IMG/VR virus record: IMGVR_UViG_3300030060_001830
Location: 1 to 22,244 of that record
Origin: a virus
Length of the DNA: 22,244 nucleotides
Reading direction: 5' to 3' (one strand)
The notes below the pieces were generated by a model that was not told the origin of the DNA, ran no database searches, and saw nothing but the letters and a program-made list of their open reading frames with translations. Position numbers and translations under genes: made by a program. This document shows positions 2,798 to 7,699 of the stretch, piece by piece. The number at the start of each line of letters is the position of its first letter. Position 1 is the stretch's first letter.

Positions 2798-3059
2798 AAC
2801 AAAACAACTAAGATTAACAGCATTAAGATTTTTAGCAAATGGAATCTCATTACTAGAAGATATTGATGACTTAAAAGAAACTAATATCTATAATAAAGAA
2901 ATGAAATATTACTGTAATAGATTTATTCAAGAACTTGAAAAAAAAATACTACCAATAGAAAAAGAAATGTATAAAACTGAACAGATAAGCATGGTTAATA
3001 CTATTCAACAATTGACTAAAGAATTTAATCATACATTACAAAAACAATACTTTGATTAA
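2787..3059 (+). CDS. Unknown small helical protein
   Basis: About 90 residues from the chosen ATG at 2787, or 96 from an upstream in-frame ATG at 2769. I prefer 2787 because it overlaps the MazG-like gene by only 11 nt and is preceded by an A-rich stretch. The product is charged, predicted mostly helical (Leu/Ile/Glu/Lys pattern throughout) and has no signal peptide, membrane segment, Cys cluster or recognisable catalytic motif. It closes the first tight gene cluster before the promoter-like box at 3077. I do not recognise the family. Confidence 0.6.
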   Translation: MENKTKQLRLTALRFLANGISLLEDIDDLKETNIYNKEMKYYCNRFIQELEKKILPIEKEMYKTEQISMVNTIQQLTKEFNHTLQKQYFD

Positions 3060-3076
3060 GAATAATTAAATTTTAT

Positions 3077-3084
3077 TATATTAG
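3077..3084 (+). promoter_or_regulatory. TATATTAG box, putative -7 promoter element
   Basis: TATATTAG differs at one position from the Bacteroidota -7 consensus TAnnTTTG. It sits inside a 14-nt AT-rich motif that recurs in other gaps of this window (5143, 9093, 20303, 21017). A TTTG lies about 22 nt upstream at the end of the preceding gene. Only 5 nt separate the box from the ATG at 3090, so a transcript from here would be almost leaderless. Identification as a promoter is inference. Confidence 0.45.
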
Positions 3085-3089
3085 TTAAA

Positions 3090-3311
3090 ATGGTTGAAGC
3101 AGGTACATTAAAAATAGATGACATTTTTATTTATAAAGGTTTTAAGCATAAAGTGATTGATAAAAACAATATTTTTGTAGTCGCTTTTAGACAACCTTAT
3201 GATGGGATAACTAGATATTATCTTCATGCAATAGAAGTAGAAAAAAAGCCTAAAACAACTTTTATAAATAATAATCCTAATCACGATATAACAGATAGAT
3301 ATAGAAGATAA
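3090..3311 (+). CDS. Unknown 73-aa protein
   Basis: A short protein with a beta-rich look in residues 5-50: alternating hydrophobic stretches (KIDDIFIYKGFKHKVID, then IFVVAFRQPYDG) suggest a small barrel such as an SH3-like fold, followed by a polar Asn-rich tail ending in Arg residues. There is no signal peptide or membrane segment. It stands alone between a promoter-like box 5 nt before its start and the repeat-bearing gap ahead of the small terminase. I do not recognise it. Clean boundaries and position support a real gene. Confidence 0.55.
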   Translation: MVEAGTLKIDDIFIYKGFKHKVIDKNNIFVVAFRQPYDGITRYYLHAIEVEKKPKTTFINNNPNHDITDRYRR

Positions 3312-3325
3312 AAAAATTATAATAT

Positions 3326-3354
3326 TAGCTAAAGTAGCTAAAAGTAGCTAAAAG
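3326..3354 (+). repeat. Three tandem TAGCTAAA(A)G repeats just before the small terminase
   Basis: Units are at 3326-3334 (9 nt), 3335-3344 (10 nt) and 3345-3354 (10 nt), followed by a degenerate TAAATATG that runs into the ATG at 3360. The period of about 10 bp puts each AGCT core on the same face of the helix. Tandem direct repeats beside terS are known in some phages as terminase-binding (pac/cos-type) sites. They could instead be an operator or a leader element. Confidence 0.6.
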
Positions 3355-3359
3355 TAAAT

Positions 3360-3707
3360 ATGCCGTATAATTATAAAAATAAAGATGCTGCAAGGGAATC
3401 AGCAAAAAAAAGCTCTAGAAAAGGTAGTCCTAATAAGACTACAAAAGAGCTTAGAGATTCTTTTCAGTTGTTTGTTGAAAATAATGTTAGTCAGTTTCAG
3501 GATTGGATTGAGCAAGTTGCAGAAAGCAATCCAGCAAAAGCTATTGAATTAGTTACTAGTTTAGGGGAGTACATATTACCCAAATTATCAAGAACGGAAA
3601 TAGATGCAGATGTAAAAACAGAAAACAAAACAGAAATAGATTACAGTAAATTAGATGAGTCAACACTTAAAGACATTATTAAACAGCTTAGACCTGATAA
3701 AAGCTGA
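3360..3707 (+). CDS. Probable terminase small subunit
   Basis: A 115-residue protein. Its basic N terminus contains SRKGSPNKTTKELRD (residues 18-32), the RKGSPNKTTKE-type signature common in small phage proteins directly before large terminases. A helical middle ends in LGEYILPKLSRTEID, also typical of this family. The C-terminal 30 residues are acidic. In tailed phages TerS recognises the packaging site and loads DNA onto TerL. The tandem repeats directly upstream would suit a binding site. The 3' end overlaps the large terminase start by about 50 nt in another frame. The role rests on the N-terminal pattern plus position. Confidence 0.7.
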   Translation: MPYNYKNKDAARESAKKSSRKGSPNKTTKELRDSFQLFVENNVSQFQDWIEQVAESNPAKAIELVTSLGEYILPKLSRTEIDADVKTENKTEIDYSKLDESTLKDIIKQLRPDKS

Positions 3708-5112
3708 ATCTGAATTATATCGTATTTCTTTTTATGAATTTACTTTAGAGGCTTTTAAAACTATCCATAACGGTCAAGAACTTACTCCTAACTGGCATAT
3801 TAAATACCTTTGTGAAAGACTACAAGAAGAAGCTATAAGGATAGTAGAGGGAAAGCCTAGAAACAAACATCTATTAATTAATGTACCTCCTAGAACTTTA
3901 AAAAGTGAATTAGTGAATGTTTTTTTTAGTGTTTATTGTTGGATTCTTAAAGACTCTATTCAGTTTATTAGCTCATCTTATTCAGCAAGCCTATCAATAA
4001 CATTATCAACACAATCAAGGAGATTAATAGAGTCTGATTGGTTTATTAGCCATTTTCCTAATGTTAAGTTATCCAAAGATGAGAATACTAAATCTAGATA
4101 CACAACTACAAATAGTGGTTTAAGATATAGTACTAGTACAGGTGGAACAGTAACAGGAATGGGTGCTGATATTATTGTTATTGATGATCCACAGAATCCA
4201 CAACTAGCCAGGTCAGATATTGAAAGAGATAATGCAAATAGATTCTTTAATGAAACATTAAGAAGCCGTTTAAACAATCCTGATATAGGTGTTTTTATTG
4301 TTATAATGCAAAGACTACATGAAAATGATTTAACAGGAATGCTATTAGAGAAAGAGCCTCATAATTGGGAGTATATTTGCTTACCTGCTGAGGTATCTGA
4401 TATTGTAAGACCAAAAGAATTAAAGAAGAATTATGTAGATGGTTTATTGTTTCCTGAAAGGTTATCTAGAACAACATTAGAAAGCTTTAAACTAGGTTTA
4501 GGGAGTTATGGTTATTCAGGTCAATATTCACAAATACCATCTCCTAGTGAAGGAGGTATTTTTAAAGGTGATTGGTTCAATATTATCAAAGAGTTACCTC
4601 ATAATTTAAGAGCCTCTGATTTGAAATGGAATTTCTATTTAGATACTGCTTATACTAATAAGCAAGAGAATGACGCAACTGCTATGCTATGTGCTGCTTT
4701 CCATAATAATGATTTATACATAAGAGAGGTTAGAGCAGTTAGATTAGAGTTCCCAGAACTAATAAAAGAAATAGAAAGCTTTGCAATGATGAACGGTTAT
4801 ACAAATAGAAGCCGTATTTATGTGGAGCCTAAAGCAAGTGGTAAAAGTATAGTACAGATGCTTAAAAGGTCAACAGGTTTAAATGTAATGGAGGATAAGC
4901 CTCCAGTACAGGACAAAGTAAGCAGGGCATCTAGTGTATCAGCATTTGTTGAAAGTGGTAGAGTTAGCCTTTTAGATGGTAGATATATTGATAGTTTCTT
5001 AAATGAATTAAAAGCTTTTCCTAATGGTAATCACGATGATCAAGTTGATGTATTAGTTATGGCAATTGACAAGAATACAAACAGAAGAAAGAAAGTGAGA
5101 GCAATAGCATAA
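3655..5112 (+). CDS. Terminase large subunit (ATPase and nuclease)
   Basis: A 485-residue packaging motor. ATPase part: a variant Walker A NVPPRTLKSE at 76-85, Walker B IIVIDDP at 173-179, and the coupling-type motif IMQRLHENDLTG at 217-228. Nuclease part (RNase H-like): acidic residues in YLDTAYT (D330), YVEPKAS (E391) and HDDQVDVLV (D461/D462/D465), giving the usual metal-binding set. Length and order match a complete TerL. The ATG at 3655 lies inside the small terminase gene. It is the only usable ATG before the conserved SFYEF...WHIKYL region starting at about residue 25, so it is preferred. TerL acts at the portal, translocating DNA into proheads and cutting concatemers. Confidence 0.93.
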   Translation: MSQHLKTLLNSLDLIKAESELYRISFYEFTLEAFKTIHNGQELTPNWHIKYLCERLQEEAIRIVEGKPRNKHLLINVPPRTLKSELVNVFFSVYCWILKDSIQFISSSYSASLSITLSTQSRRLIESDWFISHFPNVKLSKDENTKSRYTTTNSGLRYSTSTGGTVTGMGADIIVIDDPQNPQLARSDIERDNANRFFNETLRSRLNNPDIGVFIVIMQRLHENDLTGMLLEKEPHNWEYICLPAEVSDIVRPKELKKNYVDGLLFPERLSRTTLESFKLGLGSYGYSGQYSQIPSPSEGGIFKGDWFNIIKELPHNLRASDLKWNFYLDTAYTNKQENDATAMLCAAFHNNDLYIREVRAVRLEFPELIKEIESFAMMNGYTNRSRIYVEPKASGKSIVQMLKRSTGLNVMEDKPPVQDKVSRASSVSAFVESGRVSLLDGRYIDSFLNELKAFPNGNHDDQVDVLVMAIDKNTNRRKKVRAIA

Positions 5113-5174: not shown

Positions 5175-5315
5175 ATGAAAAAAGACAAAAGATTTAAGAT
5201 TAAAAACGAAAACAGTTTTATGTTTTTACTAGTATTATTATCAATATTTACAAGCTGTTTATTCTATTGTGAAAAGGCTTATTTATTTATTAAAAACCTA
5301 TTTAAAAGCAAATAA
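5175..5315 (+). CDS. Tiny 46-aa membrane peptide or lipoprotein
   Basis: The frame runs from the ATG at 5175 to TAA at 5313-5315. Residues 1-14 are strongly basic and polar. Residues 15-31 form a hydrophobic stretch ending in SIFTSC, which resembles a Bacteroidota lipobox (hydrophobic, then T/S-S-C at residue 28). The last 15 residues are Lys/Phe-rich. It is the first gene after the best promoter and the next ATG follows its stop by one base. Possible roles are a small lipoprotein, a lysis-related membrane peptide or a superinfection factor. None can be shown from the sequence. It was identified from start context, promoter and hydrophobic profile. Confidence 0.55.
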   Translation: MKKDKRFKIKNENSFMFLLVLLSIFTSCLFYCEKAYLFIKNLFKSK

Positions 5316-5316
5316 T

Positions 5317-5547
5317 ATGGAATATTTAACTAAAGATTATTTATTAAGCAAACTAATATATTTAGATATTGCTAATTACAGAAGATTAGGAAAGTTAACT
5401 CATGGTAGATACATTCATGAGCCTGCTGGATATTATAATGACCTACTAGAAATCTATGGAGAGTTAAGCAAAGAGAATATTATTAAGCTCCTGAAACTAA
5501 AGCCAAAGAGCGAAAACTTTTTAAAAGGTAATGCTCATATTTTTTAA
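5317..5547 (+). CDS. Unknown 76-aa protein
   Basis: Start chosen at ATG 5317, one base after the stop of the 46-aa peptide. A GTG at 5269 would extend it by 16 residues but would lie inside the upstream gene. The product is soluble-looking and helical, with the segments DYLLSKLIYLDIANYRRLGKL and LLEIYGELSKENIIKLLKL (each split by turns) and a His/Tyr-rich middle. I see no catalytic motif. It lies directly before the first attC-like structure, so it could belong to the phage backbone or to an earlier cassette. Confidence 0.5.
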   Translation: MEYLTKDYLLSKLIYLDIANYRRLGKLTHGRYIHEPAGYYNDLLEIYGELSKENIIKLLKLKPKSENFLKGNAHIF

Positions 5548-5562
5548 TTTGCGAATTGAGAA

Positions 5563-5606
5563 TTAACGATTAGTGTAAGAGGCTTTTTAATGCCTTTTAC
5601 ACCTTG
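5563..5606 (+). repeat. attC-like left site with an 11-bp hairpin stem
   Basis: GTGTAAGAGGC (5573-5583) pairs with GCCTTTTACAC (5592-5602) through 11 bp with one G-U and an 8-nt loop. Outside it, TTAAC (5563-5567) could pair with GTTAA formed from G5606 plus the sequence at 6409 if the intervening DNA were removed. Spacers are 5 and 3 nt, like the R/L box layout of an integron attC. The site ends at the core triplet junction G5606-TT. No clean T-run follows, so a simple terminator is less likely but not excluded. Confidence 0.5.
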
Positions 5607-6408
5607 TTAGGCACTTTTAAAAAATACGGCAAATGGGTATAAAAGATAAATATAAAGTACAAAGTACAAAAACAGAAGTAGTAAAAGAGTGGTTTTTAAA
5701 AAAGCATTATGCTTATAGAATACCAAGTATAAGTTTTTGTTTTGCTCTTTTTAATAATGATGGTTATGTAGTTGGGGTTTGTTCTTTTGGGCAACCTCCT
5801 GTTAATTTTAATGATTCAAATGATATTTGTATTGGTATTGAAAATGTAAAAGTAGTTGAATTGAATAGACTAATAACAAATGATGATTTAGAAAAAAACG
5901 TGTTATCTTTTTTTGTTTCTGAATGTTTTAAGCTATTACCAAAGCCAATGATTATTGTTTCTTATTCTGACACAAGGCAAAATCACAATGGATACATATA
6001 CCAAGCTACAAATTGGATTTATACAGGATTACCAAACAAAACAGGCGGTAAAGAATATTTTATAGACGGAAATTGGATGAGCAATAAATCTTTAGCAGAT
6101 AGACACGGAACAAGAAGTGTAAATGATTTAGATAAAATATACAAAGATTGTGATAGTAGAGATGTAAGTTTAAAACATAGGTACTTTTATTTTATAGGTA
6201 ATAAGAAACAAAAAAAACAAATGTTAAAAAGATTAAAATATGAAACGAAACCATATCCAAAAGGGCAAAACAAAAACTATGATGCAGGTTACAAACCTAC
6301 TACACAAGCCATTCTTTTTTAGATGCTCGAACGTAGTATTTTTTTATTGTGCCTAACAACCTTATAAACGAGCTTGAGCGACTGCCGTAGGTTGCGTTTA
6401 TAATATTG
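5607..6408 (+). mobile_element. Putative 802-bp integron-type gene cassette carrying a mom-like gene
   Basis: The segment begins after G in GTTAGGC (5606-5612, matches the attC core GTTRRRY) and ends after G in the downstream site. GCCTAAC at 6351-6357 matches the inverse core RYYYAAC. TTGTTAGGCAC (5604-5614) is the exact reverse complement of GTGCCTAACAA (6349-6359), 11 of 11, as expected when a circular cassette is opened at G/TT. The gene fills the cassette with leaders of 26 and 26 nt, typical of integron cassettes. No integrase is present in the window, so mobility would depend on an integrase in trans. Confidence 0.6.
5633..6322 (+). CDS. Mom-like DNA adenine modification protein
   Basis: A 229-residue protein of the phage Mu Mom type, a GNAT-like fold family that converts adenine in phage DNA to an N6-(methylcarbamoyl)-type derivative and protects against restriction. 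The family pattern is visible in order: KKHYAYRIPS at 23-32, VVGVCSFGQP at 46-55 (strand and turn of the GNAT core), VELNRL at 75-80, and the strongly conserved YSDTRQNHNGYIYQATNW at 111-128 followed by IYTG. The C terminus is Lys/Tyr-rich with KHRYFYFIGNKKQK at 181-194, suited to DNA contact. Length is near that of Mu Mom. It has no visible partner comparable to Mu Com. It is flanked by integron-like core sites, suggesting horizontal acquisition. The chemical product here is inferred from family membership only. Confidence 0.8.
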   Translation: MGIKDKYKVQSTKTEVVKEWFLKKHYAYRIPSISFCFALFNNDGYVVGVCSFGQPPVNFNDSNDICIGIENVKVVELNRLITNDDLEKNVLSFFVSECFKLLPKPMIIVSYSDTRQNHNGYIYQATNWIYTGLPNKTGGKEYFIDGNWMSNKSLADRHGTRSVNDLDKIYKDCDSRDVSLKHRYFYFIGNKKQKKQMLKRLKYETKPYPKGQNKNYDAGYKPTTQAILF

Positions 6409-6415
6409 TTAACAC
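6349..6415 (+). repeat. attC-like recombination site downstream of the mom-like gene
   Basis: This is an imperfect palindrome with integron attC architecture. The R-type arms are GTG...TAACAA (6349-6359) and TTGTTA...CAC (6406-6415). The L-type arms are TTATAAACG (6362-6370) and CGTTTATAA (6395-6403), a perfect 9-bp match. Spacers are two unpaired bases on each side and the loop is 24 nt, with a few unpaired bases as expected of a single-strand-folded site. GCCTAAC fits RYYYAAC exactly. The right core GTTAACA fits GTTRRRY only in its first five bases, which is normal where the right end comes from the next sequence. Confidence 0.6.
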
Positions 6416-6547: not shown

Positions 6548-7699
6548 ATGAGTAAGTTAAGTAAGCTAGAGCCTTACAAAGAGATTATATTTAGCCTAAA
6601 ACAAAAAGGCAAATCTTGCAGAATCATCTCAGAGCATTTAAAAAATGAATTTGATTTTGAAATACATTCTAGAACTATATTCGATTTTATAAAAAAGCAT
6701 TATACACATAGTGTTTTTGAATCTAAACTAGAAGAATCAAACTTTAATCCTAAGTCAAACTGGAGTCATGGATGGTTAAAAACTAAAGAGGCATCTATAT
6801 TTATAAAAAATAAAGAGGGTGTTATATCATTTGATGAGATGAGGGCAAAGTTTATTACTGAAATGAGTAATTACTCTCCTGCTTATAAAAAGCTAAAGAG
6901 AAAGCATATAACAGATAAACATCTTTTAGTAATTGATATAGCAGATTTACACATAGGAAAGTTAGCAGATAAATCAGAAACAGGGGATTCTTACAACTCA
7001 GATATAGGAGTTAAAAGAGCATTAGAAGGTGTAAATGGTATTCTTAGCAAAGCAAAAGGATTCCCAATAGATAAGATACTATTTATTATTGGTAATGATG
7101 TCTTACACATTGATAACGCAAATAAGAGCACTAGTGCAGGTACTACTCAAGATGTAGATGGAATGTGGTATAAAAATTATGAGATAGCAAGAGATTTATA
7201 CATTAAGATCATAGAAATGTTAGTTAATGTTGCGGATGTTCATATAGTACATAATCCTAGTAATCATGACTATATTAGTGGCTTTATGTTGGCTGATAGT
7301 ATTTTTTGTTGGTTCAGGAAACATAAGAATATTACTTTTGATGTTAGTAATTCGCATAGAAAGTATTTCATCTATGGTAAAAACTTAATAGGCTCTTCTC
7401 ATGGTGATGGTGCTAAAATGGCTGATATGCCGTTATTAATGGCTAATGAAGCTCCTTTACAATGGGCGAATACTTTTTATAGGTATATCTATTTACATCA
7501 TATTCATCATAAAGATGTTACTAAGTTTAAAAGTGGTAAAGATTATCAAGGCGTAACAGTTGAGTATTTAAGAAGTCCATCAGGAACAGACTCCTGGCAT
7601 CATAGAAACGGTTATCAACATGCACCAAAAGCAATAGAGGCTTTTATTCATAGTAAAAACTTTGGGCAGGTGGCAAGGCTTACCCATCTTTTTAAATAA
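6548..7699 (+). CDS. HTH-metallophosphoesterase (SbcD/Mre11-like phosphatase domain)
   Basis: A 383-residue protein. Residues 1-55 form a resolvase-like HTH (KQKGKSCRIISEHL, then SRTIFDFIKKH). From about 125 it is a calcineurin-type phosphoesterase with all metal motifs: DLH at 133-135, GND at 182-184, NHD at 239-241, SHGD at 284-287 and HHIH at 317-320 (the usual GHxH with His for Gly). The family includes DNA nucleases (SbcD/Mre11) and phosphatases. The DNA-binding domain makes a nucleic acid substrate likely. Proteins with this HTH plus phosphoesterase arrangement occur in phages, where their job is not settled. It starts a gene run after a terminator. Role in DNA processing or packaging is inference. 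Confidence 0.8.
   Translation: MSKLSKLEPYKEIIFSLKQKGKSCRIISEHLKNEFDFEIHSRTIFDFIKKHYTHSVFESKLEESNFNPKSNWSHGWLKTKEASIFIKNKEGVISFDEMRAKFITEMSNYSPAYKKLKRKHITDKHLLVIDIADLHIGKLADKSETGDSYNSDIGVKRALEGVNGILSKAKGFPIDKILFIIGNDVLHIDNANKSTSAGTTQDVDGMWYKNYEIARDLYIKIIEMLVNVADVHIVHNPSNHDYISGFMLADSIFCWFRKHKNITFDVSNSHRKYFIYGKNLIGSSHGDGAKMADMPLLMANEAPLQWANTFYRYIYLHHIHHKDVTKFKSGKDYQGVTVEYLRSPSGTDSWHHRNGYQHAPKAIEAFIHSKNFGQVARLTHLFK

Follow-up and report, generated by a model that had tools for sequence, protein, structure and literature searches.

The locus and its features

The stretch of DNA analysed here (the window, 22,244 nt) is a 22 kb phage record of IMG/VR, IMGVR_UViG_3300030060_001830, whose terminase is closest to those of phages of marine Flavobacteriia, for example of Croceibacter and Cellulophaga. 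Between two genes common to related phages it carries a mom-like DNA modification gene with a hairpin on either side, and this locus is very probably an integron-type cassette slot of a flavobacterial phage, in which one attC site (A) is resident and a second (B) is gained or lost with the gene downstream of it, at AA/C (the slash marks the cut), presumably by an integron-type recombinase supplied in trans. The features of the locus are these:

5269..5547, + strand: left flanking phage gene, an open reading frame (ORF) of 92 aa common to relatives (97% identity in L009, 79% in L010)
5558..5614, + strand: attC B, which belongs to the cassette; its bottom strand is the gene strand
5567..6356, + strand: mom cassette, 790 bp, attC B and then the gene; cut points between 5566 and 5567 and between 6356 and 6357, AA/C on the gene strand
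5606..5614, + strand: self-complementary cassette end GTTAGGCAC, pairing across the cassette with 6349-6357
5633..6322, + strand: mom-like DNA modification gene, 229 aa, the cargo (Pfam Mom 2.9e-34, PHROG 1384 3.9e-55)
6349..6357, + strand: opposite cassette end, GTGCCTAA/C, the C being part of the recipient site; relatives obey the same rule
6357..6415, + strand: resident recipient attC A, also in L009, L050, L051, L057, L069, L080-L087 and others, constant beside a changing gene
6548..7699, + strand: right flanking phage gene, an exonuclease/phosphoesterase (PHROG 704 4.4e-69; identity 97% in L009, 90% in L010, 87% in L011)

The cargo was correctly recognised in the original prediction, which was made from the sequence of the window. 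PF25680 covers residues 7-210 of the ORF at 2.9e-34, well above the cut-off, and the flanks of the gene inside the cassette are about 26 nt each, as described there. The protein thus belongs to the same sequence family as phage Mu Mom (PF25680, PHROG 1384), and its product would, judging from family membership, modify adenine and block restriction. In phage Mu, however, mom is a fixed phage gene, whereas here it is an exchangeable cassette.

Occupied, empty and exchanged alleles

The limits of the cassette rest on the AA/C insert borders in pairs of occupied and empty alleles and on a comparison of phages P12002L and P12002S. Such comparison shows units of a B site and a gene inserted or lost at the AA/C of the box adjoining site A. 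At the window's own locus, three relatives hold other genes between the same flanks: L009 has a 78-aa ORF ahead of the same site A; L010 reads GAATTAA/C, a hairpin, G/TTGTATGCC, an ORF, GGCATACAA/C and site A, with cassette ends that are complementary to one another and unlike those of the window; and in L011 site A comes directly after GAATCAAC, then a methyltransferase-like gene without a hairpin of its own.

A second locus, in phages with genes MRYVKDYM.. and MRTLILDKE.., holds from zero to about four cassettes between closely similar flanks. L051 is empty, with only site A, and L069 carries B, a methyltransferase-like gene and A; their flanks are identical at 577/613 and 386/400 positions and the insert is 698 bp. 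One cassette is found in L084, two in L083 and several in L080 and L085. Alleles of this layout have an unchanging site A with a variable gene and hairpin on its left; L096 and L097, which are more distant, are without site A. Likewise, the window's phage family has a third locus, unoccupied in L049 and filled in L047 by a single cassette, the ends of which are TTATGTAC and GTACATAA; the flanks match at 259/262 and 196/200 positions and the insert measures about 265 bp. Beside site A at this locus, L055 carries another mom-like gene (1366-2028), which has 40% identity to that of the window and has seemingly lost its left hairpin. A search for empty sites had been set in advance as a check on the original prediction, and the precise borders between L049 and L047 and between L051 and L069 bore out an insertion with exact limits.

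The same behaviour is seen in cultured phages. P12002L and P12002S, which grow on the same Polaribacter host strain (PMC4615864), are identical over 1018/1018 bp to the left of array 1 and over 415/415 bp to the left and 1000/1000 bp to the right of array 2, and within these identical flanks they carry different methyltransferase arrays, with mom in P12002L, where it forms a cassette (gp53) of array 2. A 964-bp unit of a hairpin and gp38 is common to both phages, with different neighbours on both sides and AA/C at both ends; the hairpin moves together with the gene downstream of it. P12002L gp36, a methyltransferase, is 90.5% identical over the aligned pieces to a gene of Cellulophaga phage phi12:1, and the phi12:1 homologue has an attC-type site of its own and different, self-complementary ends.

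At three loci, then, the right site is constant beside a changing gene, and what remains in empty alleles is the right site, not the left. Since the right site is constant and the left hairpin varies with the gene, the unit is 5567-6356, cut at AA/C, with B as its own attC upstream of mom and A as the recipient attC. The original prediction had proposed a cassette with precise limits, which the AA/C junctions uphold, but had placed it at 5607-6408 and had taken the right hairpin for its attC and the left for the recipient; the alleles move the limits and reverse the two roles. That the predicted layout should nevertheless be the true one is most improbable. The complementary ends are the same under both readings and gene-then-attC is the usual integron order, yet the constancy of the right site, its retention by empty alleles and the joint movement of hairpin and downstream gene in P12002L and P12002S all run against it, as do the AACG box, extra G and spacer asymmetry described below, which agree on the opposite polarity.

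Several further observations concern these arrays. P12002L (L075, 28900-39300) and P12002S (L104, 1-12001) have two cassette arrays per genome, and the two arrays of P12002L finish in an identical 75-bp sequence, AACGGATAAAACAAGTTTTACC... The terminal sequence AACGGATAAAACAAG was considered as a general attI-like site; within IMG/VR it occurs solely in P12002L, and also in P12002S, and because it is confined to these two phages it was not generalised. A cassette gene in L080 (5581-6456) resembles, by eye, a PAPS-reductase/DndC-type protein, with a possible role in DNA sulphur modification. L085 and L086 hold very long attC-like sites, around GCATTGTGTATGGGTA...TTACCTATACAC, whose loop contains a small ORF (about 40-55 aa). 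A more distant phage, L026 (exonuclease 53% identical), has four consecutive matches to the covariance model introduced below, at 2826-4251, a putative further array. Upstream of the terminase the window itself carries a fusion-like ORF (354-2519) with SNF2-type helicase and N6/N4 methyltransferase domains.

Structure and polarity of the two sites

Site B consists of a box, AATTAAC+G, ending at 5567-5568, a stem formed by GTGTAAGAGGC (5573-5583) and GCCTTTTACAC (5592-5602), and the core GTTAGGC at 5606-5612, with spacers of 5 and 3 nt that match those of other B sites. Site A has arms TTATAAACG (6362-6370) and CGTTTATAA (6395-6403), as originally described, a loop GAGCTTGAGCGACTGCCGTAGGTTG, an extra G at 6394 (the putative extrahelical base) and a core GTT at 6408-6410. 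Opposed core boxes of the forms RYYYAAC and GTTRRRY are present as GTGCCTAAC and GTTAGGCAC, the left flank box AATTAAC fitting less well. Sites B and A lie about 0.8 kb apart with no integrase, which places them within the definition of a cluster of attC sites lacking an integron integrase (CALIN; at least two attC sites within about 4 kb).

On the bottom strand of attC, integron integrases cut the R' box between its A and C; AAC is mostly followed by G, and the L'' of that strand has an extra G (PMC2727003, Bouvier 2009). The present sites fit these rules in their cut point, in the G that follows AAC and in the extra G. On the gene strand AA/CG occurs in 13/13 aligned B sites as well as in the window and L017, and L010 differs. 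In nearly all B sites the 5' spacer exceeds the 3' spacer by 2-3 nt, and in site A the extra G lies in the 3' arm, at the expected place and on the expected strand. The covariance model R1 further aligns to the class 1 aadA1 attC on its bottom strand, weakly (10.5 bits); this query was confirmed in 1961 plasmid records at 99% identity or above. Taken together, the AACG box, extra G, spacer asymmetry and aadA1 alignment identify the gene strand with the bottom strand of attC, so that the cassette genes are antisense to the usual layout. The usual, though not obligatory, order of an attC at the 3' end of the ORF is absent, attC B standing at the 5' end of mom.

Both hairpins fold better than shuffled sequences, z on the gene strand being -3.7 for the right one and -4.1 for the upstream one, and on the opposite strand -2.3 and -3.2 respectively. 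Inverted repeats are frequent in this AT-rich DNA, two other pairs being equal in length to the cassette-end pair, and ranking them was rejected as a sole criterion because it does not discriminate. Independent evidence was therefore sought in R1, a purpose-built model for which 13 hairpins were taken from phages other than the window and its nearest relatives; it was by this model and by comparison, rather than by IntegronFinder, that sites A and B were identified. R1 has compensatory changes at 7/17 pairs, recovers expected sites at other loci and has no match on chance contigs from the pattern search. In the window its one genuine match is the left hairpin (5563-5611), at 44.6 bits and E 8.9e-9, the runner-up having E 0.5, so that the second, upstream attC-like hairpin of the original prediction withstood the covariance-model check proposed for it. 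No Rfam family reached threshold in a scan of the window. A copy of the left hairpin and cassette start, 94.7% identical, occurs in L017 (1835-1892) at a different locus of a relative, where it precedes an unrelated C5 methyltransferase; that enzyme was considered as a homologue of P12002L gp35 on account of a shared leader, and the two are not homologous.

Hairpins with the loop GAGCTTGAGCGACTGCCG..GGTTG, conserved in sequence, occur at several distinct phage loci, and the right hairpin is a member of this family. An exact-pattern scan for the site A loop across 84,980 bacterial and archaeal species genomes gave no real match. The two genome matches, one inside a peptidase-like ORF (L076) and the other in L077, are chance occurrences without the hairpin, and the scan accordingly yields no donor genome; the match of L046 to the loop pattern is likewise due to chance.

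Complementary cassette ends

The ends of the mom cassette, TTAGGCAC (5607-5614) and GTGCCTAA (6349-6356), are mutually complementary. The core boxes GTTAGGC at 5606-5612 and GCCTAAC at 6351-6357 and the 11/11 reverse complement between 5604-5614 and 6349-6359, on which the original prediction was built, all stand, and the complementary pairing reaches 24 nt at 88%. Complementary ends are found in 16/19 cassettes. When the 8 nt after GTT are compared with the 8 nt before AAC, these 19 cassettes give 101 contiguous matched positions where 26 are expected with partners shuffled, and 0/20,000 shuffles are as good, in a statistic that is biased upward because the cassettes were delimited by eye. 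Ends of this kind would be expected if the opening of a circular cassette divides a single attC box into two halves.

These ends bear on the proposal that no site-specific enzyme is involved and that the exchanges arise by homologous or illegitimate recombination between look-alike palindromic terminators. The sites are indeed intergenic hairpins, modular exchange is common in phages and some units are without a hairpin; but the resolved junctions all fall within the AAC core, the ends pair across the cassette and not inside their own site, and the hairpins of the two sides are not homologous, all of which makes such an origin very unlikely.

Recombinase and proposed mechanism

In the cassette exchange favoured here, the gene strand would fold into an attC bottom-strand hairpin during replication, an integron-type tyrosine recombinase from the host or a co-infecting element would act in trans, cutting between A and C and swapping a circular cassette, and the gene would be expressed from phage transcription and not from an integron promoter. 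Catalysis in trans is proposed because neither an integron integrase nor another PF00589 recombinase was found in array-bearing phages, which agrees with the original prediction of a phage without an integrase. The searches took in records of 36, 38, 51, 62 and 64 kb and complete phages, the IMG/VR records possibly being fragments, and P12002S and phi12:1 were searched with TIGR02249 only. The sole PF00589 match lies in L030, a record not shown to carry an array. No complete integron, with intI and an attI platform in the same element, was found in the window or in the array-bearing relatives searched.

Several observations weigh against this account. PF00589 is absent from every array-bearing record searched, including the window and P12002L, and TIGR02249 from 23/23 records searched, including the window, P12002L, P12002S and phi12:1. 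Complete integrons are reported to be very rare in Bacteroidetes (PMC9024848). The circular cassette is predicted indirectly, from the complementary ends; the permutation set was picked by eye; and L086_c1, P12002L gp36 and L009 are without complementary ends, all three being retained in the statistic. Further, B sites are without a clear extrahelical base, with spacer asymmetry and G.T pairs seen, and some units (L011, L080, L085) have no hairpin.

The absence of a tyrosine recombinase from the array-bearing phages searched and the rarity of integrons in Bacteroidetes would also suit the same cassette system served by a phage or host recombinase of another family. A serine recombinase does lie about 1-2 kb from the arrays in second-locus phages only (for example L069, 427-1122, with homologues in L083-L087). 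It was rejected as the general enzyme, being absent from most carriers, including the window's relatives and P12002L. Moreover, the cut point and site structure obey the rules of integron integrases (PMC2727003), and a P12002L site is active with IntI1 (PMC9892861). A recombinase of another family is accordingly unlikely, and an integron-type recombinase remains the preferred candidate.

Relation to known systems

CALINs with methyltransferases have been reported in virulent phages, notably in Polaribacter phage P12002L, and 5/6 phage attC sites tested, from three phages and including one P12002L site, recombined with IntI1 (Qi et al. 2023, PMC9892861). A cassette in a phage without an integrase, presented in the original prediction as an unusual route, therefore has a precedent. 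The present arrays share with those CALINs attC-type sites, single-gene cassettes, methyltransferase cargo, a phage without integrase and a flavobacterial host. They differ from that account of single genomes in offering empty-slot and swapped alleles, a resolved unit and polarity, a recurrent recipient site and a mom cassette. The P12002L mom cassette (gp53) is unmentioned in the available text of PMC9892861, and cassettes are undescribed in that of the P12002L/S genome paper, PMC4615864. As far as this literature shows, the novelty lies in the rapid turnover of phage cassettes at exact junctions, in the definition of the unit and of its polarity, in the carriage of mom, and in a recipient site that an exact-pattern scan finds only in phages.

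Like sedentary and mobile integrons (class 1, Vibrio superintegrons), the phage arrays are made of cassettes about 0.2-0.9 kb long that mostly hold a single gene, and they have split R boxes, cuts at G/TT and AA/C, and hairpin attC sites. Unlike them, the phage arrays have no integrase gene or proven attI platform, their ORFs are read in the direction of the recipient site, antisense to attC as it is usually oriented, and their hairpins are AT-rich, with no clear extrahelical base in the B sites. It is a tentative suggestion, and a rather doubtful one, that flavobacterial phages draw on a common pool of cassettes peculiar to them, marked by a phage-confined site A, hairpin cassettes of reversed polarity, anti-restriction cargo and rapid turnover by integron chemistry, with an enzyme that is not a known host integron integrase.

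Implications

Earlier knowledge of phage attC arrays came from single genomes, and it was undecided whether the arrays are relics or still active. The differing cassettes between identical flanks of sister phages suggest that exchange is live, and a concrete question thereby becomes testable, namely which enzyme moves the cassettes when the phages and, by published accounts, most Bacteroidetes are without integron integrases. Given that the cargo consists mainly of DNA modification genes, mom and methyltransferases, cassette turnover probably changes which host restriction systems a phage resists. If this is true, live exchange would give these phages a fast and precise means of swapping DNA-modification genes against host restriction.
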